A program made the translations under genes and the position numbers. The notes under the pieces are model-generated. The model saw nothing but the letters and a program-made list of their open reading frames with translations. It did not search any database and was not told the origin of the DNA. A DNA stretch of 25,471 nt, taken from IMG/VR virus record IMGVR_UViG_3300004807_000114, positions 1-25,471 of that record; one strand, written 5' to 3'. Below, piece after piece: positions 1,754 through 25,054 of this stretch (the stretch's first letter is position 1; every line of letters starts with the position of its first letter). The stretch is from a virus.

Positions 1754-1759
1754 AATTAA

Positions 1760-1779: not shown

Positions 1780-1782
1780 ATA

Positions 1783-2412: not shown

Positions 2413-2442
2413 TTGAATTCTCCTAGAATAAGTTTTACTGTA

Positions 2443-3234
2443 TTATTTATCTTTTTTATTTTCTTCTTTCTTCTTGTCTTTATCTTTGTCTTTTCCTTTT
2501 GTTATATCTGGTTGGCCAGGACGATTTCTCATCATAGGATCAATTTCTATGGTGTCTCTTTTCTGTCCTGTTAAAGTTGATCCACCAGTCATAACAGCGG
2601 CTGCATGGGGTTTATTTTCACCGACACTATCTTTTTTATCAGCTGTTTCTATTTTAGGTTTTTTACCGTATGTTGCAACAGACTTATCTTCCTTCTCATG
2701 GTCATACAAATCTTCATTCACTTTTTTCTTGAAAATCGATTTAATCAATTTTGCAGCTCTTGAAAGTTTCTCAGAAACATCATTTGTATTATTTGCGCCA
2801 TCAAACACAGTCTGTGTTGCAGCCTGTGGATCTTGATATACATCTTCTCTTTTCAAACCAGGTGTAGTAACAACATTGTGCATAGATTGTCTAGCTTTCA
2901 GTTGTTTATGTCTTTTTGCAGTAGCATTAATACTACCTTTTACATCAGAAAGACCTTTATCAATTTCTTCCTTTTTGACAACCGGAAGTCTACCACCAGA
3001 AACATGGTCTCTTTTCCATTTTTCAAATTCGCCAGTCTTTGAAGCAGAAATCTTAGATATTTTACTTGCAGTTTTAGGATTCAATCCTTTTGTTTGCATA
3101 TATCTATTAAGTAAATCATCTTCATTAATGCCGGCCTTCGCAGACCATGGATCTTTAGGATCGACACCAAACTTAGGTTTTTCCCTGACAGTATCTTTAA
3201 CAATTGATTTTATCTTGTCAGATTTGCTGCTCAT
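2443..3234 (-). CDS. Conserved charged phage protein with ATYGKKPK / ENKPHAAAVMTGG module, likely head-associated
   Basis: A 263-residue, very hydrophilic protein, starting at ATG 3234 in a TAATG overlap with the upstream stop. The N-terminal part (1-60) has an NRYMQTKGLNPKTASKISKI helix. The C-terminal part has VNEDLYDHEKEDKSVATYGK, then ENKPHAAAVMTGGSTLTG and DTIEIDPMMRNRPGQPD, ending in a lysine/aspartate run. I recall this C-terminal module as widespread in marine T4-like phages, without a known function. V-N-E and similar sites resemble the prohead-protease sites of its neighbours. There is no classic leader, membrane segment or catalytic motif. Low complexity and position point to a core or internal head component, by inference. 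Confidence 0.65.
   Translation of the reverse strand: MSSKSDKIKSIVKDTVREKPKFGVDPKDPWSAKAGINEDDLLNRYMQTKGLNPKTASKISKISASKTGEFEKWKRDHVSGGRLPVVKKEEIDKGLSDVKGSINATAKRHKQLKARQSMHNVVTTPGLKREDVYQDPQAATQTVFDGANNTNDVSEKLSRAAKLIKSIFKKKVNEDLYDHEKEDKSVATYGKKPKIETADKKDSVGENKPHAAAVMTGGSTLTGQKRDTIEIDPMMRNRPGQPDITKGKDKDKDKKKEENKKDK
2444..2451 (-). promoter_or_regulatory. Candidate late promoter (GATAAATA) for the 209-aa gene
   Basis: The minus strand reads GATAAATA, one base from the T4 late-promoter consensus TATAAATA and matching the looser NATAAATA seen in cyanophage relatives. It lies 32 bases upstream of ATG 2412, over the last codons of the preceding gene. Supported by similar boxes before other genes in this window. 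Confidence 0.5.
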
Positions 3235-4547
3235 TACTTTGGACCTGCATGGAATTTAACTTTAGTTGATTTAAAATCTGCACCTGGGCCAACGTCATCT
3301 TTTTTCCCACCTTTAACTGGGCCTTTTAGCATATCAGTTGATCTTGTTTCATAATCAAGTTCTTCTGATGTTCCAATCTTACCTAACATTTCACTCTTCA
3401 TTCTCTTCATGGCATGACGAGCAACTTCTTTTACTCTAGCCGCAGGTGTTATTGGATTGCTTGATGGGTTTGCATTCTGTACAAAAGGAGAATCAGAACC
3501 ACAACCTGCATCCATACTTGGATCTTTACCTTCATCAATCTCAACATCTTCTTTCTTGAGTTTCTTCATGTCTTTAAATTTCTTCAGTCCTTTACCAGCA
3601 GCATTAGCAGCGGCAGAAGCAGCAGAAGATTTACTTCTTGTTGACTTCTTCCAAGGACCATCAGCAATATCTGTCCACTTGTCTTCGTTGACTTCAGATT
3701 CTTCATTATATGTTGATTTAGGGAATCCACCAGCAGTTTTACCTTTCTTCCCACCACTCGTCAAATTATAGTAACGATTGGAATTTCTTATTGCTTTCTC
3801 TGCTTCCTTTTGATCACCGCCGTGTTGTGAATGTTTTATAACCTTTCCGAATGATGCCCATCCTTTCTTTTCTGCTTCATTTCCACGTTTAATTCGTCCA
3901 AGAAGAGATTTCTTGTCTAGTTCATCAATCTGTTCTACTGACTCATCAACTTCCTTTGGTGTCTTCTTTGCCAACTTACCAATTTCCTTATCTGGATCAG
4001 TTTTCTTGTCTGCTTCAATTGGCTTTGCCTTCATTCTCTTGAGTTCAGCATCAGCACGACGAACATCATCATCTTCATCGTCATCATCCCAACGTTCTTC
4101 AAGAGTTTCTTCTTTCATTGCCATCTTGGTAGCGGTAGCATACATTACTTCTTTCCAACGCTTACCATACTTAGCCTTGAATTCTTTTTCTCTATCCTTC
4201 ATAGACAGAACAATTTTTTCTTTTTTCTTTGTCTGTGCAGGAGTCATTTCCTTTTCATCAATCTGTTCAATATCGAACTGTTTGTTCTTAAAAGAATCGA
4301 TTAGATAGTCTTTGAATGAAAGGTCTTCTTTATGGAATTTCTTAGATGCTGTGAAATAATCATCATGTCTCTTCATCTTACGTTCCATAGAGTCTGGGTT
4401 CTTAGGATCAGCCATTCTCTTTGTATTTGCTCTCATGTAGTTGCCGAGAGTTTTCTTTGACAGTTCATCAATCTGTTCCGGTTCTTCAGAGATAATCTTA
4501 TCCACGGCATCAGTAACAGAGTCTTTTATAAATTTATTGTTAAACAT
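3234..4547 (-). CDS. Modular head-associated protein with repeated I-D-E sites (polyprotein-like)
   Basis: A 437-residue, highly charged protein, starting at ATG 4547 after AAGGAAAG. I-D-E sites recur at 26-28, 96-98, 207-209 and 337-339 (three as EQIDE, one as VEIDE), with I-S-E at 19-21. T4 gp21 cuts after (L/I)-x-E, so these look like processing sites. They delimit modules: ELSKKTLGNYMRANTKR (28-44) and the degenerate copy ELDKKSLLGRIKRG (209-222); MTPAQTKKKEKIV with YGKRWKEVMYATATKMAMKE (101-146); an acidic run WDDDDEDDD (153-161); an alanine-rich stretch (308-317); and a C-terminal SPFVQNANPSSNPITPAARV block. Several modules are ones I recall from other marine phage proteins. It overlaps both neighbours. 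A prohead-core or internal-peptide role is inferred. Confidence 0.7.
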   Translation of the reverse strand: MFNNKFIKDSVTDAVDKIISEEPEQIDELSKKTLGNYMRANTKRMADPKNPDSMERKMKRHDDYFTASKKFHKEDLSFKDYLIDSFKNKQFDIEQIDEKEMTPAQTKKKEKIVLSMKDREKEFKAKYGKRWKEVMYATATKMAMKEETLEERWDDDDEDDDVRRADAELKRMKAKPIEADKKTDPDKEIGKLAKKTPKEVDESVEQIDELDKKSLLGRIKRGNEAEKKGWASFGKVIKHSQHGGDQKEAEKAIRNSNRYYNLTSGGKKGKTAGGFPKSTYNEESEVNEDKWTDIADGPWKKSTRSKSSAASAAANAAGKGLKKFKDMKKLKKEDVEIDEGKDPSMDAGCGSDSPFVQNANPSSNPITPAARVKEVARHAMKRMKSEMLGKIGTSEELDYETRSTDMLKGPVKGGKKDDVGPGADFKSTKVKFHAGPK

Positions 4548-5754
4548 CTTTCTTTCCTTTTTTCTTTTTAATTGTTATACCAATGTTTCTATTTTGATCT
4601 TTGTAAGATTGCATAGGTTCTTTGTTACTAGCACCACCAAGAACACCACCAACACCCATTCCATCAGCATCATTCTGAAAACCGTTGAATTCCTTTAATG
4701 ATTTCTTAAATTTCTTGAAAGGTTTCTTTTCAACATCATATGAACTACTTAGTGGGTTAGGACTCGCACCTTTGGTCATTCCAGCAAAATTAATAACATC
4801 GTCATTATTAAAATCTCTATCTTCACTATAGGTTTGATTACCTAAACCAGCACCAGCTGCTGCTCCTTGACCACCAGCTCTAGTATCATATTCTGGCCCT
4901 ATTCCGGATGGTCGACCTACTCTACCAGCACTCAAAGACTTATCACCTCTTTTCAACTTTTTATTCTTATCATTATCTTTGTTGAAATTAGGTTCTTTCG
5001 GTGGTGGGCTATATGTCATATGCGGTTGACTTGCCTCACTATATGTTCTAAAAGTATATGTTTTAGTTTTCTTAGGTGCATCATACTTGATATTATCAAC
5101 ACGTTCACTTGAACGATTATCTGGTGTTATATCATCAGGACCGTCAGCCTTCAATGCAGGGTTGATCTTTTTCTTGAACTCTTTTAGTATGTTTTTACCT
5201 AGAAAAGTATTTATCTTTTCGTGTGTTTTTTGTATTTCTTCTGATAACTCTTCAATAGAACCCATGTTATTGAATTCTATATAATTATCAAAAGAATCTG
5301 AAAACACATCTTTGTTTTCTTGTGCCTTTAACCATCTTGAATGACGAACTGATTCATTCATTGATCTGGATAGTTTTTCGTTACGTTCTTTGCTAACTTG
5401 ATCTGAAGTATTAGTGTAAACCATTATAGTTGTGTAACCAAACTCTTCAAGTTCTTCTTTGATGTAAAGAATCTTATCAATATCACTAGCTGGAGCATTA
5501 ATTACCAGCGGCATTCTATGTCTAATAGATTCCATTCTGTAATCTTTTGATTTTGATAACATATTATCTTTATCTGCAAGGAAATTATATACTTGAAGAT
5601 GGTTGAGTTCACTTATATCAGTTTCGGACAAAACATCACGAATGATAACATCCTTTCCTGATCCTGGACCACCAGAAACGAAAATAGCCTTAGACATAGT
5701 ATCATGTCTTCTATTTTCCGAGATATTAACAATAAAATCTTTGAAATTTTTCAT
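4540..5754 (-). CDS. P-loop kinase with capsid-targeting-like leader and long disordered tail
   Basis: A 404-residue protein. Residues 1-13, MKNFKDFIVNISE, resemble a capsid-targeting leader with candidate cleavage after I-S-E. The kinase domain follows at about 21-190: a beta strand AIFVSGG, a Walker A GGPGSGKD at 28-35, and later INAPASDIDK and TTIMVYTNTSDQVSKERNEK, as in polynucleotide- or zeta-toxin-like P-loop kinases. The rest (about 200-404) is low-complexity and charged, with GGQGAAAGAGLGN, two L-K-E sites and a terminal ADGMGVGGVLGG block. ATG 5754 overlaps the previous stop as ATGA. An alternative start is Met20 (position 5697), which would remove the leader. The substrate is unknown: RNA/DNA 5'-ends, a nucleotide, or UDP-sugar. 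Confidence 0.75.
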   Translation of the reverse strand: MKNFKDFIVNISENRRHDTMSKAIFVSGGPGSGKDVIIRDVLSETDISELNHLQVYNFLADKDNMLSKSKDYRMESIRHRMPLVINAPASDIDKILYIKEELEEFGYTTIMVYTNTSDQVSKERNEKLSRSMNESVRHSRWLKAQENKDVFSDSFDNYIEFNNMGSIEELSEEIQKTHEKINTFLGKNILKEFKKKINPALKADGPDDITPDNRSSERVDNIKYDAPKKTKTYTFRTYSEASQPHMTYSPPPKEPNFNKDNDKNKKLKRGDKSLSAGRVGRPSGIGPEYDTRAGGQGAAAGAGLGNQTYSEDRDFNNDDVINFAGMTKGASPNPLSSSYDVEKKPFKKFKKSLKEFNGFQNDADGMGVGGVLGGASNKEPMQSYKDQNRNIGITIKKKKGKKDV

Positions 5755-7559
5755 TTACTTTTTGTTCTTTGTTGTATTCTTTTAACAATGGACTTGACCA
5801 TACCACGACTTAAATTAGGATGTAACATACTTTGTACTGTATCAACATCACCTTCTCTAGCAGCCTTTCTAACATCAGAAGCATGTACACCATCACGACC
5901 AGATGCATCTCTCATGTTATTCTGGTCATGTCTTGTCATAACGTGAATAGATTTGAAGTTGTATCCTCGGCCATTCTTGTCAAACTTTCCATTATACGCA
6001 TGAAGGCTGTTCTTCATTTCTTCAATTCTATCATCACCTAATACAACAGTTGCGTGTCTATATCCTTTTGCATGAAGGTCTGCCAATGCATGAAATATAG
6101 ATGGTGAAGTCTTTGAAGAGGTGTGAAATATACCTCTATGTTCAGGATGAGCTTGTCTTAAAACAGCAACCTTTTCGTTACCTGTCAATGGATTCTTGTC
6201 TTTATCATGTGAATGACTAACGAACACATGAGGGTCTCCACCAATATCATTTGCATGATCAACTACAGCATCAACCAAATGACTGTGTTCTTTATGTGGA
6301 GGAGAGAATCTTCCAAATGTAATAACAGCATGTTTACTTTTGGGTTTATAATTGGTCAGAGATTCTAAGAACATATTTTCCGTAACTGGTTTACGGAAAC
6401 GAGCATTCATATTGAAATTGTTTCTACTGAAATCAGCACGATTGACCAATTTCAATGTATTGATGTTGTGGTGTTCAGGTGAATCGAATGTCCATCCTTC
6501 CGCACCAGTCTGTCTAAATGATCCATCAGCGTTTTCTAGATGATGTGTCACTTTACTGTTAGAATCAGCTTTATTAATCAAATCAACTAAATGATCTTTC
6601 GCTTCTTCTGTTGCTGCATGTAAATTAACACCGTGTTGAATATGTTGACGATTATCACTCAACATTTGTATGTGTTTTTGTTGAGATTCGATTTTCTGTT
6701 TCTTAGCTTTATCAGTTTTTACTTTATCGATACCCTTTTGATGTTGTTCATTAACATGATTAATGAAATCATTGACATTAGGTTTAGAACCTTCCCTGAC
6801 AGTTCTATTGATATAAGTCTTGAAGTGTTCTTTAACATCAGGATGACTCATGAAGTCGAATGCTTCTTTTGGAGTATTGCTTATTGTATTAGATAACTTC
6901 TTCAATACCTTTTTTGTCTGTTCATTCTTTTGAATCTTAGGTGCAGACAGGTCCATGTTATAAACATCTGGATGTTCCTTTACATCACCTGGTTCTAATG
7001 GTTTTCTTTCACCCTTTTCATTGAAAGCTGAGTGCATAGCAACACCAACCTTTGCATTCTTGATTTTTTGTGCTTCTGCATCATCATGAACTTCATTTTT
7101 GATAGTGTTGGGTTTAAAAGAAACACTACCATTCTTTTCCTTTTCTACTTCTTTTGGAGTAAATAAGAACTCACCAGAAATATGGCGATTATTTCCAGAA
7201 ATTTTGTGTGCATTATCAAGTAACTGATGTAATTTATCAGCCAGGCCAGGAGAGTGGCCATGGTTTTTTTCTATGTCTTCGTGTGTGTAATTGATCTTTG
7301 GATCTTTGTTGTCAATGGACTTGGTAGCAATACCTTTTTTACCTTGAACATTGGTAACAATATGAAATGCCAATGAACCATCACCTTTCTTTTGTAATGG
7401 GTGACGGTTATTAGCAGTATCTTGTAATAATTTATGTGCTGCTACAGCACCTTCTTTACCATGATCCAAAAACAATTCTTCTGGGTGTCTATAATGCCCA
7501 CGATAACCACCAAGATTATCGAATACAGATTCCTGTAAATAGAATTTAAAATTTATCAT
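5751..7559 (-). CDS. Bifunctional nucleotidyltransferase: ligase-like N-terminus (DUF6267-like) plus HxGH-type C-terminus, with capsid-targeting-like leader
   Basis: A 602-residue protein, starting at ATG 7559 after AAGGA. The leader MINFKFYLQES has L-Q-E at 8-10. Residues about 50-380 show marks of covalent nucleotidyltransferases (RNA/DNA ligase superfamily): motif I K-G-D-G at 58-61 with Lys58 as candidate nucleophile, GIATKSIDNK at 76-85, SGEFLF at 128-133, EGW at 354-356 and LKLVNR at 369-374. I recall this domain as DUF6267. From about 409 a Rossmann nucleotidyltransferase begins: AVITFGRFSPPHKEH (HKEH replaces the usual HxGH at 422-425) and a late GRDGVHASDVRKAA, similar to the ISxTxxR motif of NadR/cytidylyltransferase enzymes. 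A late promoter precedes it and the kinase gene follows with ATGA coupling. The reaction is unproven. Confidence 0.75.
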   Translation of the reverse strand: MINFKFYLQESVFDNLGGYRGHYRHPEELFLDHGKEGAVAAHKLLQDTANNRHPLQKKGDGSLAFHIVTNVQGKKGIATKSIDNKDPKINYTHEDIEKNHGHSPGLADKLHQLLDNAHKISGNNRHISGEFLFTPKEVEKEKNGSVSFKPNTIKNEVHDDAEAQKIKNAKVGVAMHSAFNEKGERKPLEPGDVKEHPDVYNMDLSAPKIQKNEQTKKVLKKLSNTISNTPKEAFDFMSHPDVKEHFKTYINRTVREGSKPNVNDFINHVNEQHQKGIDKVKTDKAKKQKIESQQKHIQMLSDNRQHIQHGVNLHAATEEAKDHLVDLINKADSNSKVTHHLENADGSFRQTGAEGWTFDSPEHHNINTLKLVNRADFSRNNFNMNARFRKPVTENMFLESLTNYKPKSKHAVITFGRFSPPHKEHSHLVDAVVDHANDIGGDPHVFVSHSHDKDKNPLTGNEKVAVLRQAHPEHRGIFHTSSKTSPSIFHALADLHAKGYRHATVVLGDDRIEEMKNSLHAYNGKFDKNGRGYNFKSIHVMTRHDQNNMRDASGRDGVHASDVRKAAREGDVDTVQSMLHPNLSRGMVKSIVKRIQQRTKSK

Positions 7560-7602: not shown

Positions 7603-7610
7603 TATTTATA
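7603..7610 (-). promoter_or_regulatory. T4-type late promoter TATAAATA
   Basis: The minus strand reads TATAAATA, identical to the T4 late-promoter consensus recognised by the gp55 sigma factor. It overlaps the last codons of the methyltransferase gene and lies 44 bases upstream of ATG 7559. It separates the glycan genes from the head-associated genes and probably starts late transcription of the latter. Confidence 0.75.
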
Positions 7611-8238
7611 TATTCTTTTTTGCTACAACAGTTAGAATATTTGGCCACATATCGACCGGTTTTCTTATTTGATCTTCTTCATTTCCGATATGAATAATAG
7701 AACAATTTGCATCAGTTAGTAGTCCAACCAAACCATGTACATCAAAATGATGAAAATGTTCATTTGGTTTTCTGTGTTTCCAGTTTTTAAATGATCCGAC
7801 ACCCAAGAATTCATGGAACCAAGGAACAGAAATAACAAAATACTTCGCCTTCTTATTATTCAAGAAAGATACCAAGTCTTCCTCTACGATATGTTCTATC
7901 GAATCAAAGAAAGTCATAACATCAACTTCTAGATTATCAATATCACTTACAGAATGTACACCTTCCGGTACAGGATAATCTGAAATATCATATGCATGTG
8001 ATGTGTGACCTTTAGATTGGCAATATCGAATAAATGCACCATTACCATATCCAAAATCACAAATAGAATCAAATTCCTTTACATATTGCTTAACAATATT
8101 GTATCTAATTTCAGACATTGCATCGGATGGAATATTGTTGTAATAATTACAATATTCTATTGAGTATTGGGGACCAATACCAGTTACTTCTGTTTGATAT
8201 AAGTGACCGGCTCTTAAAAATCTATAGTTTTCTTTCAT
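7606..8238 (-). CDS. SAM-dependent class I methyltransferase
   Basis: A 210-residue protein. The AdoMet-binding motif I is at about 58-69 (SICDFGYGNGAF), followed by an acidic strand end (HAYDISD), motif II/III-like FFDSIEHI, and FVISVPWFHEF. HFHHFDVHGL resembles the NxxHxxHF signature of Methyltransf_23 enzymes that act on sugars or quinone-type substrates. The length suits a single-domain methyltransferase. ATG 8238 overlaps the previous stop as ATGA; the ribosome-binding site is weak, so it is likely translationally coupled. As the last gene of the glycan cluster it probably methylates a sugar or glycan intermediate; the exact substrate is not visible. A late promoter for the next block lies across its 3' end. 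Confidence 0.75.
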   Translation of the reverse strand: MKENYRFLRAGHLYQTEVTGIGPQYSIEYCNYYNNIPSDAMSEIRYNIVKQYVKEFDSICDFGYGNGAFIRYCQSKGHTSHAYDISDYPVPEGVHSVSDIDNLEVDVMTFFDSIEHIVEEDLVSFLNNKKAKYFVISVPWFHEFLGVGSFKNWKHRKPNEHFHHFDVHGLVGLLTDANCSIIHIGNEEDQIRKPVDMWPNILTVVAKKNI

Positions 8239-8975
8239 AGTAATCTTTCTAATTCAGTTGCGTGTACCATTTGTGACTTTCTGTTTTTATAGAAATGTTT
8301 TTCAAACACTTTGTCGATATTACAGTTATCCCAAGACACATCATTTCCGTTTCTATACTCTGGTTTCCAGTCTTCGGGTTTCCAGACAATAAATGTTTCT
8401 TTATTAAGTAAATCCGCAATAACAGAAACACCAGTCAGATTTGTGATAAAAGGTTTCGTTGAATTCTTGATAATATAACAATTAGTTAGAATGTCATTGT
8501 TATAATCAATGAATTCAAAGTCAGAAAGATAGGTCAAAATGTTACATTCTCTTCTTCTATCTGTAAATTGACCAGCCCAGCGATCACCAACATAATAGTT
8601 ATCTTTAACTTCAATGTCACAATGGGGGAATTTGATTTCAAAATCATCATCTACTTCAAAATCGGGGTTTAGGTTGTCTCTTATCCAATTTTCATATTTG
8701 CACGTTTCATGTGGACGAATATCAGAATTTACTGTGTGTCTACAGTTCCAAATGTCTAACTGTACCACATTATAATCGATATTGATCTCATTGTCAAGAT
8801 ATACGTTGTCGAACAAATCTTGGTATAAGAAAAATTCTCTTATACCTTTGAATTGTGTCAGTTCATGTTTTATAACTAGATCAAATTTACCTATTTTCTT
8901 ATTTAATCCTGATAATACTGGTAGTGAATTTAACAAATCACCTAAAGAACCAATATGCTTGATATAAAGTTTCAT
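8235..8975 (-). CDS. GT-B glycosyltransferase-like protein (GT9/heptosyltransferase-like)
   Basis: A 246-residue protein. ATG 8975 is chosen because AAGGAG lies five bases upstream; a longer frame up to 8999 would overlap the previous gene. It starts MKLYIKHIGSLGDLLNSLPV, like the first strand and helix of GT9 family ADP-heptose transferases (G-x-x-G-D). The C-terminal half has a second Rossmann-like stretch (FITNLTGVSVIADLLNKETF) matching the GT9 region that places the nucleotide-sugar. It is shorter than typical GT9 enzymes (about 320-350 residues), so it may be a reduced or divergent form. The start is one base after the upstream stop. The sugar and acceptor cannot be told from sequence. 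Confidence 0.55.
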   Translation of the reverse strand: MKLYIKHIGSLGDLLNSLPVLSGLNKKIGKFDLVIKHELTQFKGIREFFLYQDLFDNVYLDNEINIDYNVVQLDIWNCRHTVNSDIRPHETCKYENWIRDNLNPDFEVDDDFEIKFPHCDIEVKDNYYVGDRWAGQFTDRRRECNILTYLSDFEFIDYNNDILTNCYIIKNSTKPFITNLTGVSVIADLLNKETFIVWKPEDWKPEYRNGNDVSWDNCNIDKVFEKHFYKNRKSQMVHATELERLL

Positions 8976-8976
8976 A

Positions 8977-10488
8977 TTACTCCTTAATATCTCTTCCATC
9001 GAAGGCCATTATACCCTCAACATTGATTTTATCGAATTCAATAATGTTGTTGGGATCAATGTATCTTTTGAATACATGTTCCATGTTATTACCTTGATTC
9101 TGTAAATGTTTACCCATGATATCAATAAGTTTCATAAAATCTGTAACATTAGTTTTACACATTGACCAAAATCTACATTCAAAAACAGGATAAGATTGAA
9201 TTGGAGACTTTAAGAACACATATTTTCCGTATGTACTACTATAATCATTCATATCAAAATCATCAGTAAGATAATATCTTCCACTAATCTTAAATACTCT
9301 GTTTAAGTCAAGCATGTTAATATTTCTAGTGACACAAAGTAACATTTTGTATAACATGAATAATTCAGGTAAGCTTCTATCGTAATTGACTGATGCTAGA
9401 TATTCTGGTTTACTTAATTTGCAGATCAATTTATCAATATCATCTTTTTCGTCTCCAGATTCTATCAAGATATTTACCTTTTTCTTTATATCATCAAGAT
9501 ATTCTTTTGCGTCCACCAGAGAAATGTCATTCATAATAATGAATGGATTTTTAATATGTTTTTTAACCGATTCAATTGTTTTTAGTGTTTGTTTATATCG
9601 ATCTTCGATACTCACTTTACCAAAAGTAGTTCCAATAGAAGAAGTTATCAACACAACATTAAACATACTATCTTTCACTATTCTGTAGTATAACTTTTGA
9701 TAGTTTTTACCTTCCATCTTTTCGAACATGTGGATAAAAGGAACATAACTGTCATGTTCAAATACTCTATTATTTTCATCTAATAGAATCTGTTTATTTG
9801 ATGGAATAACTTCGTCACCGTCATAATTAAATGACATAATAGGAAATTCAGTATAACCAATAGGTAAAATTCCTAACTTAGCATATACAATAGCAAAGAT
9901 ACCTTCTTCCGTTCTAGCACCTCTAAAGAATCTCTTGCATCCATAATTATCATAATTCAAGAAAACTTCTCTTGCACTTTCAAAAAATTTATCAGCAAAT
10001 TCACCTTTTTTTACATAAGTTAATCCGCAATGCATAGAAGGAATAGTTTTACCCAGTAACTTGGAAATGTTATTAGATTCACCCCAATGCCAATTTGGAT
10101 CAGCTACTTTATTTCCCATATTGGCAACAGAAAACTTATTCTCTTTCATATAATCCCAAATCTTATTTGGGCTATACTGACACAAAACATCACTATCTAA
10201 GTTAATAGTTTCATCATAGGTTGAATACTTTTCCAGATTCAATCTGATGTATACACAATTTCTTTCAAAATCATTTTGACAATCCAAATACACAGAATCG
10301 TTTATATCTGGTTGAAATATTACTACATCATCAAAAACTTTGAAGTTTTTAGCCATTTCTTCGTCTTGTTTATGAACAAGTATAGAAACAGGTCTAGTTT
10401 CACCCTGCATTCTTAGTGTTCTAACTAAATGATAATTTTCTACAATATATTTTTGACCAAGACCGATCAAAAGATAACCTTGTGACAT
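8977..10488 (-). CDS. Two-domain glycosyltransferase (GT-A with DSD motif)
   Basis: A 503-residue protein with a GAGG ribosome-binding site before ATG 10488. The N-terminal domain (about 1-260) is GT-A, similar in layout to GT8: YLLIGLGQKYIVENY, then ETINLDSDVLC with the metal-binding D-S-D at 98-100, then SMHCGLTYVKKGEFADKFF and an acidic GARTEEGIFAIVYA stretch. A second domain starts near 277 (FNVVLITSSIG) and includes RVFKISGRYYLTDDFDMNDY, which looks like another sugar-transferase-type domain. The fusion suggests two linkages made by one protein, or one catalytic and one acceptor-binding domain. It sits within the tightly packed glycan operon, with 16 bases separating it from the upstream gene. 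Confidence 0.7.
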   Translation of the reverse strand: MSQGYLLIGLGQKYIVENYHLVRTLRMQGETRPVSILVHKQDEEMAKNFKVFDDVVIFQPDINDSVYLDCQNDFERNCVYIRLNLEKYSTYDETINLDSDVLCQYSPNKIWDYMKENKFSVANMGNKVADPNWHWGESNNISKLLGKTIPSMHCGLTYVKKGEFADKFFESAREVFLNYDNYGCKRFFRGARTEEGIFAIVYAKLGILPIGYTEFPIMSFNYDGDEVIPSNKQILLDENNRVFEHDSYVPFIHMFEKMEGKNYQKLYYRIVKDSMFNVVLITSSIGTTFGKVSIEDRYKQTLKTIESVKKHIKNPFIIMNDISLVDAKEYLDDIKKKVNILIESGDEKDDIDKLICKLSKPEYLASVNYDRSLPELFMLYKMLLCVTRNINMLDLNRVFKISGRYYLTDDFDMNDYSSTYGKYVFLKSPIQSYPVFECRFWSMCKTNVTDFMKLIDIMGKHLQNQGNNMEHVFKRYIDPNNIIEFDKINVEGIMAFDGRDIKE

Positions 10489-10504
10489 AATAACCTCGCT
10501 CTTA

Positions 10505-11254
10505 TTAATAGTATTTCTTATAGTGCATGATTACATCGTAATCTGGTCTAAGATCATCAACCAACTTATCATAATCAATATCACTCTTCGGTTTATCATG
10601 CGAACTTCTTGGGAGTTCTGTACACCTAGTATTAACTGTAAAGTCTTTTCCTGCCAACATAAAGAAAATGGTCATGAAACAATCAACCCAACCTATAGTG
10701 GGATAGATATGATCCTGAATAATTCTTCCAGTTGTTCTCATGAACTTTACAACTTCTGGGTAATATTCAATGAATGTTGATACTTTATAAATTGATCCAC
10801 CGCAACCTGCATAGTAGTTTGTCTTTGGATATTTTCCAGAGAATTGATAGATCCAGTCTAAAACTGGTTCTGGAATAAATTCATGTGATTGAACACTCAT
10901 ATGTTCACAGTCATAATCAAACTTTAATGGACGTGTAAGTATAATATCGTCCTCCATCAACATAATATGTGAGGATGGACTTCTTACAGCCGCAATATAG
11001 AATCTACTCAGAAAATCCAACGCATCTTCAATTTTATATCCATGTGGCTGTTGTTGATATCCCAATCTTTTATTACAATGTAAATATTCGCAATTATAAG
11101 TTTTAGCCATTTCCATATAACTATCACAACCATCACAGGCTAATAGAATATATTCTTCTGGATAAATCTTTCTCAATTCGATTAGAGATTGTTCTGTAGC
11201 ATTTCTATAAACGGAAACACTATTAAAAAAACTCAAACTAGCTTCATTCTTCAT
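10505..11254 (-). CDS. Glycosyltransferase, GT-A type (EDD motif)
   Basis: A 249-residue protein from ATG 11254, with AAGG ten bases upstream; a longer in-frame start would run into the previous gene. It has SVSVYRNATEQSLIELRKIY near the start, a strand EEYILLACDGCD, and HIMLMEDDIIL with the metal/nucleotide-sugar-binding E-D-D at 101-103. Later TNYYAGCGGSIYK and DHIYPTIGWVDCF fit acceptor and catalytic loops of GT-A enzymes. No membrane anchor is present, so it is probably cytoplasmic. It is separated by four bases from the previous stop. The donor sugar is unknown. Confidence 0.7.
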   Translation of the reverse strand: MKNEASLSFFNSVSVYRNATEQSLIELRKIYPEEYILLACDGCDSYMEMAKTYNCEYLHCNKRLGYQQQPHGYKIEDALDFLSRFYIAAVRSPSSHIMLMEDDIILTRPLKFDYDCEHMSVQSHEFIPEPVLDWIYQFSGKYPKTNYYAGCGGSIYKVSTFIEYYPEVVKFMRTTGRIIQDHIYPTIGWVDCFMTIFFMLAGKDFTVNTRCTELPRSSHDKPKSDIDYDKLVDDLRPDYDVIMHYKKYY

Positions 11255-11258
11255 TATT

Positions 11259-12083
11259 TTATACCTTGTTGTAATCTTTGAAAATTCTGAACCAATCATC
11301 AGGTGAATTGTAATGCAGTTCAAAATACTGTGGTGCTGATAGATAAGACATTAACAGGAAAGTCTGATCATCATCAGAAAGATTCATACTCAAAGCAAGG
11401 TCTAAATTTAAAAGTACCAGATTATATAATTTCTTCCACATATTGGATCCGGCAACAATATGACAACCTTGAATATAAACATCACCTGTATATACAATAT
11501 CTGCAAAAGTTCTATTCAGATTACCATCAATATCACGCATGTTGAATAGATGAATCTTCTCTTTATCGAAGTCATAGTTCCATTTCAAGTTTTTAGGTAA
11601 AGTTTCCAGGTTACGAACATATCCAAAATCAATCCAAGCTACAAGATCGGTTTTTACAACATCTCTTTCAATTGCATAGTTGAGGTACCAAGACTTTAGT
11701 ATATTAACCAGTACATAATCCGAATGCCAATACTCAATGAGTTGTGGATTTACAATTTTAGAGATATATTCAGGATCATTCATTACCTTTTCAATCTTTT
11801 CTTTATAATGAGATAGATCATCAGGTAAATATGAATCTACAGATATTACAGTTGTCTTATCTCCAAGGCCTTCTGCAATTCTAATATTCCTAACACGATC
11901 CGCAAGATCGTGTGTTGTAAATATGACCATAGGATTTTTGATTTTGGACAAATTCTTGAAAAATTCAAAATAAGTTTCAGTCGAACGATGTTGATAGTGA
12001 GGTAGAATTCTTCCATATTTCATTGCAGGAAGATCACCACGACCAATATCAAAGAAAGCGGTAACGATTGTAATTTCACTCAT
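11259..12083 (-). CDS. HtrL/YibB family protein, probable glycosyltransferase
   Basis: A 274-residue protein. Its start, EITIVTAFFDIGRGD, and the later segments NPMVIFTTHD, LVAWIDFGYVR and YIQGCHIVAGSNMWKKL follow the HtrL_YibB family, found in LPS and capsule gene clusters and related to glycosyltransferases such as WlaTC. Length matches the family. The D-F-G in WIDFG stands where GT-A enzymes carry the DxD motif. Its stop is five bases before the next start, and its own start overlaps the previous stop by eight bases. The membership is fairly clear by eye; the catalytic role is family-level inference. Confidence 0.7.
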   Translation of the reverse strand: MSEITIVTAFFDIGRGDLPAMKYGRILPHYQHRSTETYFEFFKNLSKIKNPMVIFTTHDLADRVRNIRIAEGLGDKTTVISVDSYLPDDLSHYKEKIEKVMNDPEYISKIVNPQLIEYWHSDYVLVNILKSWYLNYAIERDVVKTDLVAWIDFGYVRNLETLPKNLKWNYDFDKEKIHLFNMRDIDGNLNRTFADIVYTGDVYIQGCHIVAGSNMWKKLYNLVLLNLDLALSMNLSDDDQTFLLMSYLSAPQYFELHYNSPDDWFRIFKDYNKV

Positions 12084-12939
12084 ATTTTTTCTCTATAATA
12101 TCTTTCCAGGCTGGTACACGATTATATTGGTGTACCATACAATACTTTTCACCTTTACTGTTATATACATATTCACCATCCCAAATAGGTTCGGGACATA
12201 ACAGATTAGGTCTAAACTTATCTATCTTACTTGGATCCACGGTTGTTCCTGCCTCACAAGCCCAACTAACATCGTGGTTATTAAATTGAGTAATCTGTTT
12301 ATAAGGTTCCAATGAAAGAACAAGATTAACTGCTGCTTGATCGGGTGTAGGATTATGTTGTGCGTTTGTAAGAACCAAAGCCACATTCAACGAAAAATCA
12401 ACAAAGGTATTAAATCTCCCCATCATTGATCCGGCATTATAAATGGATGAATCTTTTACCTTTTCATAGATTTCTGAACCGAAACATTGTTGGAAGTTCT
12501 CATTACCCCAATCTTCATTTTTATACTTCAGTCCTTCTGATTGATACATCAGAGAATAAACGGATAATTGTAGAAAATTTTCATCAATCCATTCGGAAGG
12601 ATTGGTCTGAAATACTACATCAGATATATCTGTGGAAATAACATAACGAATGTCTTTTTGATCCTTGAGGAACTTCCAATAAAAGAAGTGACGTAGAGCA
12701 GGAACTTGGTATGTGATGTTATCTGCAAAATGATAACCATCATTTGTTTTATTTCTTTGTTCGGAAGATAACCAAACTTCAAAACCATTATCGTTTAAAT
12801 GTTTGATTGTTTCATCTTTGATATTAAAAGCGACTACTGCCTTTCTACCAGTGAAACCACTTCTATTAATTGAATTGACCCAGATTTTAAGTTTGTCGTA
12901 ATTATACTCCGATACTGCGCTTATGATCAAGTCTTGCAT
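12076..12939 (-). CDS. Glycosyltransferase-like protein (DxxD, NAG, DQ motifs)
   Basis: A 287-residue protein. It starts DLIISAVSEYNYDKLKIWV, then AVVAFNI; YVISTDISDVVFQTNPSEW carries D104 and D107 in the position of the metal-binding motif; SIYNAGSMMGR, PTPDQAAVN and a C-terminal HQYNRVPAWKD follow the order acceptor loop, catalytic acid, metal-binding histidine seen in several nucleotide-sugar transferases. It starts at ATG 12939, with AGG nine bases upstream, inside the end of the SDR gene: 38 bases overlap in a different frame. No signal peptide. The sugar is not determinable. Confidence 0.7.
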   Translation of the reverse strand: MQDLIISAVSEYNYDKLKIWVNSINRSGFTGRKAVVAFNIKDETIKHLNDNGFEVWLSSEQRNKTNDGYHFADNITYQVPALRHFFYWKFLKDQKDIRYVISTDISDVVFQTNPSEWIDENFLQLSVYSLMYQSEGLKYKNEDWGNENFQQCFGSEIYEKVKDSSIYNAGSMMGRFNTFVDFSLNVALVLTNAQHNPTPDQAAVNLVLSLEPYKQITQFNNHDVSWACEAGTTVDPSKIDKFRPNLLCPEPIWDGEYVYNSKGEKYCMVHQYNRVPAWKDIIEKKYE

Positions 12940-13717
12940 AATATGAACCTATATTTTTAATAATATCTTTGTTTAAAACTTGCGGCCTTTGAATGTCCAA
13001 TACATTATATATTAGATCACTATTGAGAATAAATTGTTCACCTAATTCATTGGATTCTGATTTTACATTTGCTTGGCCATATCCAGTAATCAACCAGTTA
13101 CCAACGTCACCAATCTTTGTGCCATACCCGCTACCAAGATTAAAAATTCCAGTTTCTTTCTTATAACACATAGATGCAATGGCATCAGCAGCATCCATCA
13201 CATATAATAAATCTTTTTGTGTATCAGATGATACAGTATACACTATACCACCGTTTTTGTCAAGAGAATTAAGGAAATAACCCATAAATGAGTTTCTACC
13301 AAGTTCTCTTCCGTACCAATTACTTCCACGAATAATTGTTGATGAATCTCCAAAATATGATTGTATCTTTAATTCAGAGATAACTTTGTTTTCACTATAA
13401 TAATCATATGGTTTTAGTTTAGAATCTTCATAATACTCTTTTAGTTCAGTTGATGAACCATATACTTTTCTTGTGGAGAACATGATGTAATGACATTTAT
13501 TATCATTAGCCCATTTTGCAATCTCAAAATCAACATCATTGTTTACATCATAATAACTTGTTTTTGATAATGGGTTGAGAGCACAATTTAAAACAACATC
13601 ATAATCTTTTAGATCAACATTTTTATAATCTTTGTATGATACTGAAAAGAAATTTGAATGTCTTGATAGGTATTGAGATATAAAACTATTTTTACCTACT
13701 ATTAAGACTTTCGCCAC
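12902..13717 (-). CDS. NAD(P)-dependent SDR epimerase/dehydratase
   Basis: A 271-residue extended short-chain dehydrogenase/reductase. The start is GTG 13717 with GGAGA seven bases upstream. The N-terminal nucleotide-binding strand is KVLIVGKNSFISQYL (a relaxed GxxGxxG), then FSTRKVYG at 80-87 and the catalytic Y107-S-E-N-K111 pair, preceded by a Ser81/Thr82 candidate. GIFNLGSGYGT is the usual substrate-domain loop. Such enzymes make activated sugars such as dTDP- or GDP-sugars, so it likely supplies a donor for the transferases around it. It is a little shorter than typical (about 310). It overlaps the previous gene by 16 bases and the next by 38. Confidence 0.8.
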   Translation of the reverse strand: MAKVLIVGKNSFISQYLSRHSNFFSVSYKDYKNVDLKDYDVVLNCALNPLSKTSYYDVNNDVDFEIAKWANDNKCHYIMFSTRKVYGSSTELKEYYEDSKLKPYDYYSENKVISELKIQSYFGDSSTIIRGSNWYGRELGRNSFMGYFLNSLDKNGGIVYTVSSDTQKDLLYVMDAADAIASMCYKKETGIFNLGSGYGTKIGDVGNWLITGYGQANVKSESNELGEQFILNSDLIYNVLDIQRPQVLNKDIIKNIGSYYARLDHKRSIGV

Positions 13718-14415
13718 GGCAGTTCTCCATTGAAATGTTGTTCAACAAGTTTATTATTATGTTTAAAGAAGTCAGATTGCACCACATTAGTTCCACCACC
13801 CATACGATAGTTTACTGTATATTGGCTTGTGGTGTTAAACTTTTTAAAGGAATCAAATAGACACATCAAGAATTTTCTATCTTGTCCCCATCCACCATGC
13901 CAGTTAGATGCAACTTGAACCGCACGATCTGTTCTAATACAGTAACAGTTTGTATCCACATGAGCATATCCCATAATTGGCCATTGGGGACCTAATGATT
14001 CACAGTTATCTTGACATGCAAATTCACCATTCTGTTCATATATATTTCTGAGAGAATAACACCAGTCTAAATTGTTCTCTTCAATCGTCTTGACACAAGA
14101 TTCAACATGATTGGGTTCTAACCAACAATCTTGATCTAGATAAAGAACGTAATCAGTATTGATTAGATGAGTAAATGCAGCATAGACCCTATGACCATAG
14201 AATCCATTTGCACCTACGTTATTGGGTAGAGTACATACATTTAATCCCGAATCTGTAAGGTCCATGTGATAGAGGATTTCATCAACTTTGTCAACATGTT
14301 CTAGTCCATCAATAACTAGATATGTTTCTGTTGGGTATGTTTGATTGAATACACTTTCTAAAGCTTTTTCCAAATCATCAGATCCCGTAGTTGGGATAAT
14401 CACAGTTGCAGTCAT
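13702..14415 (-). CDS. Family 2 glycosyltransferase
   Basis: A 237-residue GT-A enzyme, starting at ATG 14415 with AGGTAA just upstream. Residues 1-10 (MTATVIIPTT), LEKALESVFNQTYP and TYLVIDGLEH are the typical GT2 opening, and YVLYLDQDCWLEP carries the D-Q-D (94-96) that binds metal and nucleotide-sugar. A later GGWGQDRKFL fits the ED/GxD catalytic-base region. It is cytoplasmic with no transmembrane segment. It is the first gene of the glycan cluster, seven bases after the stop of the 431-aa gene, so it is probably cotranscribed with that gene. The donor is unknown. Confidence 0.82.
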   Translation of the reverse strand: MTATVIIPTTGSDDLEKALESVFNQTYPTETYLVIDGLEHVDKVDEILYHMDLTDSGLNVCTLPNNVGANGFYGHRVYAAFTHLINTDYVLYLDQDCWLEPNHVESCVKTIEENNLDWCYSLRNIYEQNGEFACQDNCESLGPQWPIMGYAHVDTNCYCIRTDRAVQVASNWHGGWGQDRKFLMCLFDSFKKFNTTSQYTVNYRMGGGTNVVQSDFFKHNNKLVEQHFNGELPWRKS

Positions 14416-15738: not shown

Positions 15739-15746
15739 TATTTATC
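15739..15746 (-). promoter_or_regulatory. Candidate late promoter (GATAAATA) for the 431-aa gene and glycan cluster
   Basis: The minus strand reads GATAAATA across the stop region of the DUF4338-like gene, 21 bases before ATG 15718. It matches seven of eight bases of the T4 late consensus. If active it separates late transcription of the 431-aa gene and glycan genes from the replication operon. Confidence 0.5.
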
Positions 15747-16848
15747 GAATGATATCAATATCTTTTCCTGAGGTCCATACCTCAAGTTCAGTCCTCAATC
15801 GACCTTCAGACTTCAAAGTTTCATAACGGTTTGTTGCTTTCCTTTTCCACCATTCTATGATATTTTCCAATTCAAACTTATCATAATTCTGACCTTTAAT
15901 CAAGTTGTCAGTTTTACCATTAACTACATCAATATAGTTTTCAAATCCATAATCAGATATGTAATACCTTTTTTGTTCAGTTAGACTTTTAGCATTTTCA
16001 ATTATTTTATTAAAATGTTCACCTTCTACTGAACCTTTTAGAGCCTGCTTAGTCAAAGCAATGATCCTTTGTGAAATCTTGAGTTTTCTACTAGAAGCAT
16101 TATCATCCACAATTTTTCCAATCTTTTCTTCCATGAAGTTTTTCAAATCCTCAAAAGGCTTACCATTCATCATAGGAAGAAAATCTGAATCAGTCAAACC
16201 TTTAAATCTAATATAAGGTTTCATGCCATCGTACTGAGATACAGATTTTGAACTACCATAAAGTGATGTAGTTTCAAATAAACAGAGATTCATATCATAT
16301 TTCTTGTTACAAATCTCTCTTACTGCATGTGAACAACAAATAGCAGCCAATAATTTACCACCAAGATAGTTATATCCAAATGGTTGTGATGGAACAATAA
16401 CAAAACCCATTAGTGTAGTCTTGTTAAATATTTTAGCATTTTCTATTGTTTGAGTGAATACCTGACCAAGCATTTCGTTACGAGGTTTACAATTAATCAA
16501 TGGCGAACCAAGACGAATAAATCCAACATATTTACCAGTATTCTTTTCAAGAACAGCGAGTTTAATATTTTTACCAACAGGTGCAATATTAATATGTGAG
16601 GAGGTGATACTCAATAATGTTTCCCATTGTGATCCTGGAATCTCAACAACATCTAAATCCATATCATTTGGATGCATATTGAAATCAGAGAATAGATCAT
16701 CTTCTGGTGGAAACAATGCATTGGTTGGTATATCAGATAAAGATGCCAACTTCTGATCTTTCATATACTCATCTATACGACTAAAATTACTGAAATAGTC
16801 TTCGTATACTTTAGAAACGTGTATGGCATCTTCTTTTTCAAAACTCAT
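15742..16848 (-). CDS. DUF4338-like protein in the replication operon
   Basis: A 368-residue protein. Its core at about 100-235 (GFIRLGSPLIN, KPRNEMLGQ, MGFVIVPSQPFGYNYLGGKLLAAICCSHAV, LFETTSLYGSS, GMKPYIRFKGLTDSDFLPM) is what I recall as the phage branch of the DUF4338 family; a DUF4338 protein (DruA) is also part of the Druantia defence system, though the shared activity is unknown. The C-terminal part has EQKRYYISDYGFENY and a WW-KRKATNRY segment. It overlaps the gp41 stop as ATGA, with AAGG nine bases upstream, so it is coexpressed with the replisome. It stands where T4 has its primase gene 61 region, but shows no primase zinc motif. Role unknown. Confidence 0.65.
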   Translation of the reverse strand: MSFEKEDAIHVSKVYEDYFSNFSRIDEYMKDQKLASLSDIPTNALFPPEDDLFSDFNMHPNDMDLDVVEIPGSQWETLLSITSSHINIAPVGKNIKLAVLEKNTGKYVGFIRLGSPLINCKPRNEMLGQVFTQTIENAKIFNKTTLMGFVIVPSQPFGYNYLGGKLLAAICCSHAVREICNKKYDMNLCLFETTSLYGSSKSVSQYDGMKPYIRFKGLTDSDFLPMMNGKPFEDLKNFMEEKIGKIVDDNASSRKLKISQRIIALTKQALKGSVEGEHFNKIIENAKSLTEQKRYYISDYGFENYIDVVNGKTDNLIKGQNYDKFELENIIEWWKRKATNRYETLKSEGRLRTELEVWTSGKDIDIIR

Positions 16849-19545: not shown

Positions 19546-22086
19546 TTAATTAAAAAAGTCAGCTAACGAACTTGTTTTTTCAGTTTTCCAACCGATAGAA
19601 TCCATAATAATCTTGATTGGATCTAAGAAAGTTTTATCGAATTGTACATCATAATCGATATACTTGTCAAGCCCCAATTCTGTTGGAAGTTTCTGTGGAT
19701 AAGAAATAACATCTTCTTTGATTGGATTTGGCATTTTAAGATAAGTGAACTTCAACTTTTCCCCTTCTTGGATCAAAGGATATTGCTTGTCGAGTCCATT
19801 CTGTTTCAGATAATAATTATATAGAATTGCACCACGAACATGAATTGGACAACTTTTCTTATACAATGAAACAGGATCAGACCACTTTTGAAGACCATTT
19901 ACTCCACGGGGGAATGAAATATCCTCAGCAGACTGACTCTTGAATTCACTTCTGAATTTTTCAATAAACTCTTGAACTTTAGATTCTGTTCCATTCAAAA
20001 GAACCTTAATCAATTCAGCCATTCTTTCACGAATGAATGCTGGAGTTGAAGATTTGATCATTTCAAGACCCATGACTTTAATATCAGGTTCTTCAAACTG
20101 AACACCTTCATTGTTATATACATTCAAAATATAACGCTTCTTGGCAGTCCAAATACCTTTGTCCGCAAGAGCCTCTCGCTTCATTTGCATTTTTTGATCA
20201 TAAGCGAACACATAGTCAGCAAGTTCTCTGTAACTTCTATCGATAAATGGTTGAATCTTTTCTTCACAGAATTTATCCATGATGGAGATAGTTTTGAAAG
20301 TGTCACCTCGGTGAAGAGAAAACTTATGTACCATCGGCCCAAGATTGAGATAAATCGAGTCAGTATCAGACGCAACCACATAATCACTACTAGTCTCCAA
20401 TAAATTATTCATAAACTCATTCAGTTTCTTTTCGATCCAACGAATAGACAACTGACCTGCCATTGTTACACCCAATGCCATACGCAAATCGTAGAATCTG
20501 AAATACTGTGAACCGGTTGCACCATAAGCAGAATTCAAACCAACTTTCTTAGCCAATTCAATGTTCTTATATTTTGCTACTGTTTTTGAAATCTCAAACT
20601 TCTTCTTTTCATCATGTTCATTGACATACTGTTGCTTGGCTTCAAGCATCATCTTCTTGAACTTCTTTCGATCATTATACATTTCTTCTAACATTCTCGG
20701 TAAGAAACCTTGAATATCGGTCCTAAAGAACTGACCGTTAGGAGTCATGGTAACATTTAGACCTTCAAGGGCACTCAAATCAATTTGTTTATGCAACATT
20801 TTTTCAACAGTAATACCTTGAGACAGAATATCACGCATTTCTTGTGTGTAATCTTCTGGTTCAATCAATGTTTCTGGTGAAATATTATACTGCATCATCA
20901 AATGGGGATATAGAGAATTCAAGTCGAAAGATGCAACCCAATTGTGCATACCAACTTGAACTTCTTTTACATAAGCACCCTCAAAGGACGCATCCTTCTC
21001 TTTAACAACTCTTGGGGGAACGATAATGTTCCGTTCCAACAAATGAGAATATGTCAGAGCATCCCACATTCTGGTTTGTGCAAAGATATCCTCATAGTTT
21101 GATTTAGTATCATAAGCAAGAGTCAAACCCAACTCAAGAAGCCTTAACTTATCTTCAAGACGAACAATAAGTTCAACGTCTTTGATATTATATTCGATGA
21201 ATAATTGAAAGTTTTCTTTATACAGATTATGCAGGTTTCCATACTCTTCATAAGACAACTTACGTTCTTTCAACTCAACATGAGCAATATTATCCAAACG
21301 ATAAGATTCTTGAGTCTTGCCGTTTGGAGCGTACCACTTATAAAGTTCAATATAATCAAGTGAGGCGACACCTTCCATACCGTAGGCAATCAATTCTCGA
21401 CCATTTACGTTAGTCTTACGTTCAGAGATATAATTCCAAGGGGAGAGTCTCCTGGTGTCATCCTCGCCAAGAATTTTACGAAAACGATTGACGATGTATG
21501 GAATATCGAAAAACTTGGTATTCCAACCGGTGATTACATCCGGACACCTTTCTGTCCAGAGTTTAAGGAACTGCCTACAAAGCGTCCATTCATCTTTGCA
21601 TCGTAGATAGTGTTCATCACCTTTAGTTTCATATTCACCACAACCAAAGACCCAGGTTGCTCCATTTAGATATGTAACGGTGATAGCTGTGATAGGTTCA
21701 TTTGCAAGATATGGATCCGGAAAACCATTCTCCGATCCAACTTCGATATCGATAATTGCAATAGAGACTTTATCGAAATCCCACTCAATTTGGCCTTTGT
21801 GTTGATCCGCAATAAAAGCATATTCAAACCTAGACTGACCATAGATTGTAGGTGCTCCAGAAACTTTCTCAAATTGCTTGATATAGTCACGAGCTTCACG
21901 CATCGTGCCAAAGATTTTCTGTTGTAGATTGTCACCCTTTAGTGACTTAAATTTAGATGGAATTTTAGAGGGAATGTAAAACGAAGGAGAATATTCAATT
22001 TTATGTTTTACTCTTTTACCGTTAACAACACCCCGATAAAGGATGTTGCTACCGGATACTTGAACGTTTGTATAGAAATTTTTCAT
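19546..22086 (-). CDS. 43: DNA polymerase gp43 (family B)
   Basis: An 846-residue replicative polymerase with 3'-5' proofreading. Exonuclease motifs: Exo I D113-I-E115, Exo II around GWNTKFFDIP (187-196), Exo III YNIKDVELIV (299-308). Polymerase motifs: A SFDLNSLYPH (386-395), B KKVGLNSAYG (513-522), C SDTDS (573-577). The C-terminus SSLADFFN looks like the sliding-clamp-binding tail. Length is near T4 gp43 (898), so the gene is complete with no intron or split. ATG 22086 fits the conserved FYTNV opening, but no Shine-Dalgarno sequence precedes it (AATATTTATAAAATG), unlike its neighbours, so its translation may be specially controlled. Confidence 0.97.
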   Translation of the reverse strand: MKNFYTNVQVSGSNILYRGVVNGKRVKHKIEYSPSFYIPSKIPSKFKSLKGDNLQQKIFGTMREARDYIKQFEKVSGAPTIYGQSRFEYAFIADQHKGQIEWDFDKVSIAIIDIEVGSENGFPDPYLANEPITAITVTYLNGATWVFGCGEYETKGDEHYLRCKDEWTLCRQFLKLWTERCPDVITGWNTKFFDIPYIVNRFRKILGEDDTRRLSPWNYISERKTNVNGRELIAYGMEGVASLDYIELYKWYAPNGKTQESYRLDNIAHVELKERKLSYEEYGNLHNLYKENFQLFIEYNIKDVELIVRLEDKLRLLELGLTLAYDTKSNYEDIFAQTRMWDALTYSHLLERNIIVPPRVVKEKDASFEGAYVKEVQVGMHNWVASFDLNSLYPHLMMQYNISPETLIEPEDYTQEMRDILSQGITVEKMLHKQIDLSALEGLNVTMTPNGQFFRTDIQGFLPRMLEEMYNDRKKFKKMMLEAKQQYVNEHDEKKKFEISKTVAKYKNIELAKKVGLNSAYGATGSQYFRFYDLRMALGVTMAGQLSIRWIEKKLNEFMNNLLETSSDYVVASDTDSIYLNLGPMVHKFSLHRGDTFKTISIMDKFCEEKIQPFIDRSYRELADYVFAYDQKMQMKREALADKGIWTAKKRYILNVYNNEGVQFEEPDIKVMGLEMIKSSTPAFIRERMAELIKVLLNGTESKVQEFIEKFRSEFKSQSAEDISFPRGVNGLQKWSDPVSLYKKSCPIHVRGAILYNYYLKQNGLDKQYPLIQEGEKLKFTYLKMPNPIKEDVISYPQKLPTELGLDKYIDYDVQFDKTFLDPIKIIMDSIGWKTEKTSSLADFFN

Positions 22087-22088
22087 TT

Positions 22089-22101: not shown

Positions 22102-22121
22102 GACTAACCTTGGAGAATTTC

Positions 22122-25043: not shown

Positions 25044-25054
25044 TATAATAAAAT

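Follow-up and report, generated by a model that had tools for sequence, protein, structure and literature searches.

What do eight adjacent genes for glycan enzymes build in a T4-like phage, and on which surface would the product be placed? The window, i.e. the whole stretch of DNA analysed here, is a 25,471-base record of such a phage, whose polymerase is ~50% identical to those of cyanomyophages, 45% to that of Pelagibacter phage HTVC008M and 70% to that of a related contig of 235.8 kb (G005). Two longer contigs belong to the same species, G001 (100% identical in shared stretches) and G002 (95-98% in the main aligned blocks). On the minus strand the genes of the window run in the order DNA polymerase (gp43), UvsX, gp41, a DruA-like protein, a 431-aa protein, the island, a DUF6267/cytidylyltransferase protein and more uncharacterised proteins (Table 1). 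A sequence-only reading of this DNA had placed an eight-gene glycan island at 7606-14415 between replication and head genes. The island itself was borne out: the ORFs are present, four of the seven junctions overlap (16, 38, 8, and 4 nt) and Pfam, PHROG and AlphaFold support the families. The other three junctions are gapped (4, 16, and 1 nt), all figures assuming that two starts are moved to ATG, since the true start of gene 5 is the ATG at 11254 and not the TTG at 11323, and that of gene 7 is the ATG at 8975. With junctions between a 38-nt overlap and a 16-nt gap, the eight genes form one tightly packed set, and all eight adjacent genes encode soluble proteins. The replication side of the proposed placement holds as well; on the other side no head gene was identified, the block there consisting of the DUF6267/cytidylyltransferase gene and further uncharacterised genes that follow a late promoter motif of the T4 type.

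Table 1. Coordinates of the island genes and flanking features in the window.
Feature	Position	Strand	Evidence
Glycan island, eight genes	14415-7606	minus	all eight ORFs without internal stops
Gene 1, GT2-type glycosyltransferase, 237 aa, DQD motif, first in island	13702..14415	minus	Pfam Glycos_transf_2 1.2e-12
Gene 2, nucleotide-sugar SDR (epimerase/reductase), GTG start, YxxxK	12902..13717	minus	Pfam Epimerase 4.4e-15, RmlD 1e-8
Gene 3, GT-A-like glycosyltransferase, conserved T-D-x-x-D	12076..12939	minus	phrog_1579 glycosyltransferase 5e-6
Gene 4, HtrL/YibB family	11259..12083	minus	Pfam HtrL_YibB 1.8e-52, NCBIfam YibB 1.3e-65
Gene 5, predicted GT-A-fold glycosyltransferase, EDD motif	10505..11254	minus	AlphaFold pLDDT 94.2
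Gene 6, two-domain protein	8977..10488	minus	Pfam GT8 2.3e-5, phrog_1903 3.3e-38
Gene 7, compact GT9-fold (heptosyltransferase-like) glycosyltransferase, 246 aa, GxxGD	8235..8975	minus	AlphaFold pLDDT 94.6
Gene 8, SAM-dependent methyltransferase (Methyltransf_23)	7606..8238	minus	Pfam 1e-10
Flanking slot gene, 431 aa	14423..15718	minus	phrog_1462
DruA-like flanking backbone gene	15742..16848	minus	phrog_19197; PF14236 29.3 bits vs cut-off 27
DUF6267 + cytidylyltransferase-like domain, backbone flank, first gene of next block	5751..7559	minus	Pfam DUF6267 1.8e-50
T4-type late promoter motif TATAAATA, downstream island border, serves next block	7603..7610	minus	

The family assignments differ in strength. 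The sole match of gene 3 is the weak one to a phage glycosyltransferase PHROG (5e-6); T103, D104, and D107 of its TDxxD motif are invariant among 37 relatives. Gene 4 scores 179 bits against PF09612 (gathering threshold 24.1) over residues 2-269 and is therefore a full-length member of that family, while it stays below the NCBIfam YibB equivalog cut-off (221.9 of 342). It is probably a glycosyltransferase of the LPS/LOS core type; we know of no established reaction for HtrL/YibB proteins. Gene 6 is GT8-like with an LDSD motif in residues 1-273, where the Pfam GT8 match is marginal (24.6 bits vs. a cut-off of 24.3), and carries an extra domain with no family assigned in residues 274-503; its homologues in two related loci (L004 and L005) end after the GT8-like domain. 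Gene 8 probably methylates a sugar. Genes 5 and 7 matched no family by sequence and were compared as predicted structures. The gene 5 model matches GT-A enzymes in Foldseek (1e-7) and reaches VIA Z scores of 11.8-15.7 to GT-A enzymes; E101 and D103 of its acidic metal-site motif are invariant and D102 nearly so. On the model, gene 5 is of the GT-A fold with the acidic metal-site residues in place. For gene 7 the best Foldseek matches are WaaC (6.5e-5), and VIA gives Z 13.9 to 3tov (GT9) and 13.5 to WaaC over 205-209 of the 246 residues. WaaC and other GT9 enzymes lie at Z 11-14 and other enzyme classes at or below 7.5, with the absence of a family from a VIA list not counted as evidence. The same list also contains a plant NDH-PSI subunit at Z 11.6-11.9. 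At the Pfam Glyco_transf_9 gathering score none of 38 gene-7 relatives match, and because gene 7 falls outside Pfam GT9 by sequence we term it GT9-fold and not a GT9 member. Profiles of gene 7, gene 3, gene 5, and HtrL found no meaningful match among PDB sequences, and a marginal PLOD-GT match in 1 of 37 members was too weak for use.

Is this set of genes a chance assortment? About 150 loci were gathered from viral contigs with the gene 7 and gene 8 profiles as baits, and after clustering there were 43 non-redundant islands of uncultured relatives, complete from the gp41/DruA-like genes to the DUF6267 gene. GT2, HtrL, and the GT9-like gene occur in all 43 and gene 3 in 42; the full count of the GT9-like gene is partly the result of selection, since it served as bait (as did the methyltransferase). 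A second GT9-like gene, c3, which the window does not have and which scores 19.4 against the Pfam Glyco_transf_9 cut-off of 22, is found in 39 islands, gene 5 in 36, a second SDR in 31, the methyltransferase in 23, the SDR of the window in 11, an RfbH-like 3-dehydrase in nine and the GT8-like gene in seven. Measured between the last gene on the replication side and the DUF6267 gene, the islands span 6.4-13.3 kb, with 9-17 genes between gp41/DruA-like and DUF6267 when slot genes are counted, and the gene order near the core is preserved. Accessory genes in the relatives include DegT/RfbH, HAD plus nucleotidyltransferase, C-methyltransferase, cytidylyltransferase and several methyltransferases, i.e. 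the toolkit for unusual surface sugars that is known from O-antigen pathways; the RfbH-like 3-dehydrase matches at 1e-111 (371.6 bits, under the equivalog cut-off of 423). Between two contigs of the same species, 43 synonymous vs. 14 nonsynonymous substitutions were counted in seven of the eight genes. The recurrence of 43 non-redundant islands at the same site, together with the mainly synonymous substitutions, argues that the island is not a product of chance. The proposal that these genes make a defined oligosaccharide, and not a single transfer, gains from these comparisons: five or six glycosyltransferase domains, an SDR and a methyltransferase are kept together, a set that is enlarged in relatives by RfbH-like, HAD-nucleotidyltransferase, C-methyltransferase, and cytidylyltransferase genes.

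The site is fixed while its content changes. In place of the slot gene the relatives carry unrelated proteins, and even the slot gene of G002 differs from that of the window. Homologues of the DUF6267 gene were found in 526 phage records. HTVC008M and Methylophilales phage Melnitz have the gp41 and DUF6267 block in common with the window; a single unrelated gene lies between and the island is absent. Within the lineage, a phage pair with 96% identical DruA-like proteins carries islands that are entirely unlike from past GT2 to the late promoter. When locus L101 is compared with L132/L133, the stretch that holds gp41, the DruA-like and slot genes and c12 is 92.6% identical in DNA, and GT2 follows at 86%; past GT2 the proteins are 38% (gene 3), 46% (HtrL) and 36% (GT9-like) identical and the gene content differs, and similarity is back at 88.5% immediately ahead of the DUF6267 gene. 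The swapped block begins at the 3' end of GT2 and stops close to the late promoter. Since L132 and L133, taken from two separate IMG records, match at 99.985%, the second island type is no assembly accident; the first type is backed by L100. Among pairs with at least 90% identical DruA-like proteins, gene 3 is below 60% identity in 12 of 32, the pairs not being independent, and over 780 pairs gene content is not predicted by how similar the backbones are (Spearman 0.03). By analogy, the block replacement resembles bacterial serotype switching.

Three targets had been suggested from the sequence: modified DNA bases, virion surface proteins and host LPS. The best explanation of the data, in which we have moderate confidence, is a glycan assembly locus carried by the phage: in the course of lytic infection it would remodel host LPS, either the outer core or a lipid-linked O-unit, working from the cytoplasmic side. 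The SDR (in relatives also the RfbH-like, HAD-nucleotidyltransferase, and other enzymes) would make a special activated sugar; GT2, gene 3, HtrL, gene 5, gene 6, and the GT9-fold enzyme would add sugars sequentially to a membrane-anchored host acceptor; the methyltransferase would cap a sugar; and the modified acceptor would be exported by the host's own flippase. The altered surface may block the adsorption of competing phages, and of the progeny onto debris or already infected cells, and with block swapping the phage may track surface types or make them more diverse.

Both the bacterial context of HtrL and the GT9 fold favour host LPS. The fold of gene 7 is nearest to WaaC and other LPS heptosyltransferases. 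Among 398 genomes of one bacterial phylum, both carriers of HtrL have it in waa-type or LOS-type loci, the neighbouring genes being identified by eye from their translations. The HtrL family has been tied to LOS synthesis, and one member lies in an Acinetobacter outer-core locus (PMC4172580). The RfbH-like, C-methyltransferase, and HAD-nucleotidyltransferase genes of the relatives are typical O-antigen sugar genes. No membrane span is predicted in 514 of 527 island proteins and at most one in any protein, so that the islands are without a many-spanning flippase, polymerase, or ligase; in the entire G005 contig one ORF has at least four predicted spans. Set against a complete O-antigen locus, the islands have the special nucleotide-sugar synthesis genes and several glycosyltransferases, and the multi-spanning flippase, polymerase, and ligase are absent. 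Assembly of the LPS core requires none of these three beyond the host's, and their absence fits the extension of a cytoplasmic-leaflet acceptor that is exported by the host. The promoter pattern points the same way: TATAAATA is found directly ahead of the DUF6267 gene in 38 of the 43 islands and in none of the 43 from GT2 to the DUF6267 border, which fits an action directed at the cell and separate from virion assembly. Judged by this motif, the downstream block would be late and the island probably is not. Further copies, 93 nt ahead of the end of the DruA-like gene, were discounted as they are inside the coding sequence. Real expression timing can hardly be read from a missing late promoter motif. 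A search of the 398 genomes of one phylum with a profile that matches three of four lineage records found no GT9-like core enzyme, and a pattern-limited scan of bacterial and archaeal genomes gave one bacterial relative of the methyltransferase at 31% identity; together these two results make a phage-specific acceptor possible. Soluble glycosyltransferases are equally able to act on phage proteins.

The main rival is accordingly the virion: the acceptor would be a capsid or decoration protein, on which soluble glycosyltransferases would assemble a methylated oligosaccharide that alters the particle surface, and swapping would diversify virion glycotypes. We consider this somewhat unlikely. An island without membrane-spanning transport proteins is what is expected for cytoplasmic protein glycosylation, the core glycosyltransferases appear to be phage-specific, the adjacent block encodes a 209-aa Asn/Ser/Thr-rich protein (35% N+S+T), and mycobacteriophage virion glycosylation is a precedent (PMC12619734). 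However, the HtrL and GT9-fold relatives indicate LPS core, none of the 43 islands has a late promoter motif from GT2 up to its border, and the 209-aa family is present in 20-36 loci vs. about 130 for the island, a count in which many contigs stop short of that gene. The Asn/Ser/Thr-rich 209-aa protein named in the sequence-only reading exists; nothing links it to the island. Under a stricter form, which is unlikely in our estimate, a whole lytic T4-like lineage would carry its own serotype-like locus, the O-antigen-like glycan would decorate the virion instead of the host, and recombination between phages would move glycotypes in blocks.

Transfer of an oligosaccharide to a hydroxymethylated pyrimidine of the phage DNA, as a defence against restriction, is very improbable. 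Replication genes adjoin the island, and phage DNA glycosyltransferases exist, cases with diverse glycans included; a match to TET-associated glycosyltransferase (TAGT) in 1 of 38 gene-5 relatives was marginal (E 0.0044) and too weak for use. The known pyrimidine (dCMP/dUMP) hydroxymethylases belong to PF00303, for which 0 of 17 lineage records gave a match (13 including the one of 235.8 kb, plus G001, G002, G019, and G020; fragments or records of unrated completeness, none rated complete), whereas the T4 control matches three times. Of C5 DNA methylase there was no match in 10 such records, while the Melnitz control matches, and searches for a TET-type oxygenase, run without a positive control, gave no match either. 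With neither a thymidylate-synthase-family enzyme nor a C5-methylase found, a glycosylated pyrimidine is unlikely, and modified bases are the one proposed target that lost ground. Least probable of all is a reading of the genes as metabolic cargo taken from a host, or as a drifting collection with no single joint product: the content does vary widely (9-17 genes) and one gene 6 is a fusion, but the near-universal core (GT9-like partly bait-selected), its preserved order and the excess of synonymous substitutions speak against it.

Glycosyltransferase clusters of aquatic phages are usually entered among the auxiliary genes, with their use left unclear. In the present lineage, a conserved glycosyltransferase core, one fixed site, interchangeable sugar cassettes, and clean block replacement between close relatives look like the genetics of bacterial serotypes in a lytic phage. 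With the host as target, cells may be re-serotyped in the course of lytic infection, before they lyse; with the virion as target, phages would have serotypes themselves. With either target, the island is a testable locus with defined borders.

Several known systems share part of this picture. The LPS-gene islands of pelagimyophages and cyanomyophages (PMC7029224; Synechococcus phages S-SM2 and ACG-2014f) are likewise clusters of glycosyltransferase and nucleotide-sugar enzyme genes in T4-like phages, and a change of the LPS O-chain against co-infection has already been proposed for pelagimyophages (PMC7029224). S-SM2 has in common with the present lineage a methyltransferase (59% identical to that of a relative), SDR2 (67%), HAD-nucleotidyltransferase and a GDPD-like protein, and ACG-2014f has a GT8-like, an RfbH-like and an SDR protein; the core GT2, gene 3, HtrL, GT9-like, and gene 5 found no match in the S-SM2, ACG-2014f, and Melnitz stretches or in HTVC008M. 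The sites differ too: the pelagimyophage genes lie mainly in the host-recognition cluster between VrlC and gp14 (PMC7029224) and the ACG-2014f cluster next to a tail-fibre gene, whereas the present island lies between the gp41/DruA-like genes and DUF6267. The freshwater genomes of the same study were reported to be without LPS-related genes (PMC7029224). The phage was not equated with the published fonsimyophages, as those are reported to be without LPS genes, nor with moraphages, which reportedly fall outside the T4 group. At the DNA level, nothing among annotated phages matched the island, and the core glycosyltransferase set gave weak matches only. A 38% HtrL match to 'Campylobacter phage A11a' was set aside; the record is marked UNVERIFIED and the stretch reads as enterobacterial waa/hldD/kbl/tdh DNA.

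Bacterial waa and LOS outer-core loci also have HtrL/YibB, GT9, GT8, other glycosyltransferases and sugar-modifying genes side by side (PMC4172580). By sequence, the phage island is without the kinase, ligase, and standard Waa enzymes of those loci, and its GT9-like enzyme, compared with bacterial GT9, is compact (246 aa) and under Pfam detection. Serotype conversion by temperate phages (gtrABC) also depends on phage genes that are thought to alter host O-antigen. The gtr products are membrane proteins that usually add one sugar, whereas the island is soluble, has multiple glycosyltransferases and its own sugar synthesis; as to a GtrA flippase or multi-spanning GtrC, no island encodes a multi-spanning protein. 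T4 DNA glucosylation is likewise the work of glycosyltransferases in a T4-like phage, but T4 has PF00303 enzymes and in the island lineage none was found. Phage glycosyltransferase islands with a proposed LPS role were already known; the new part, not found described in the literature examined, is a conserved glycosyltransferase core with serotype-like block swapping at a fixed site.

The site that separates the island from the DruA-like gene is occupied across relatives by unrelated proteins of 340-500 aa, and even the same-species contig G002 carries a slot protein unrelated to that of the window. By eye, a D...SLK pattern is common to several slot proteins, and it is reminiscent of PD-(D/E)XK nucleases. 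The adjoining DruA-like protein is kept throughout the lineage and is present in Pelagibacter phage HTVC008M, where we observed two stretches similar to it. The matched Pfam family is that of a Druantia defence protein.

Features discussed, with coordinates
Feature	Location	Remark
DruA-like backbone protein	window 15742-16848	Pfam DruA, 29.3 bits (cut-off 27)
Slot	window 14423-15718	
Gene 6, C-terminal 229 residues	window 8977-9666	
HNH-like ORFs, alike	window 22068-22700; 24357-25133	
UvsX start of a relative	L004 206-715	VVTHN-T junction
L018	MG065691 135839-160630	UNVERIFIED Campylobacter phage A11a record
Downstream block	window 619-7559	

The C-terminal residues of gene 6 matched no Pfam family, and this extra domain is missing from the GT8-like genes of the related loci L004 and L005. 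Locus L018 has the appearance of an LPS core locus from an enterobacterium (hldD, waaF, waaC, ligase, yibB, kbl, tdh), and its presence in the phage record is therefore probably due to contamination or misassembly.

One HNH-like ORF adjoins gp43 on the plus strand and the other lies within an array of 11 tRNAs; both are possibly homing endonucleases. The L004 UvsX start resembles an intein's C-terminal end. In the downstream block, several proteins start with M-K/I-x-F-x-x-F/Y-like leaders, which we take to resemble the sequences that target the internal head proteins of T4 to the capsid.
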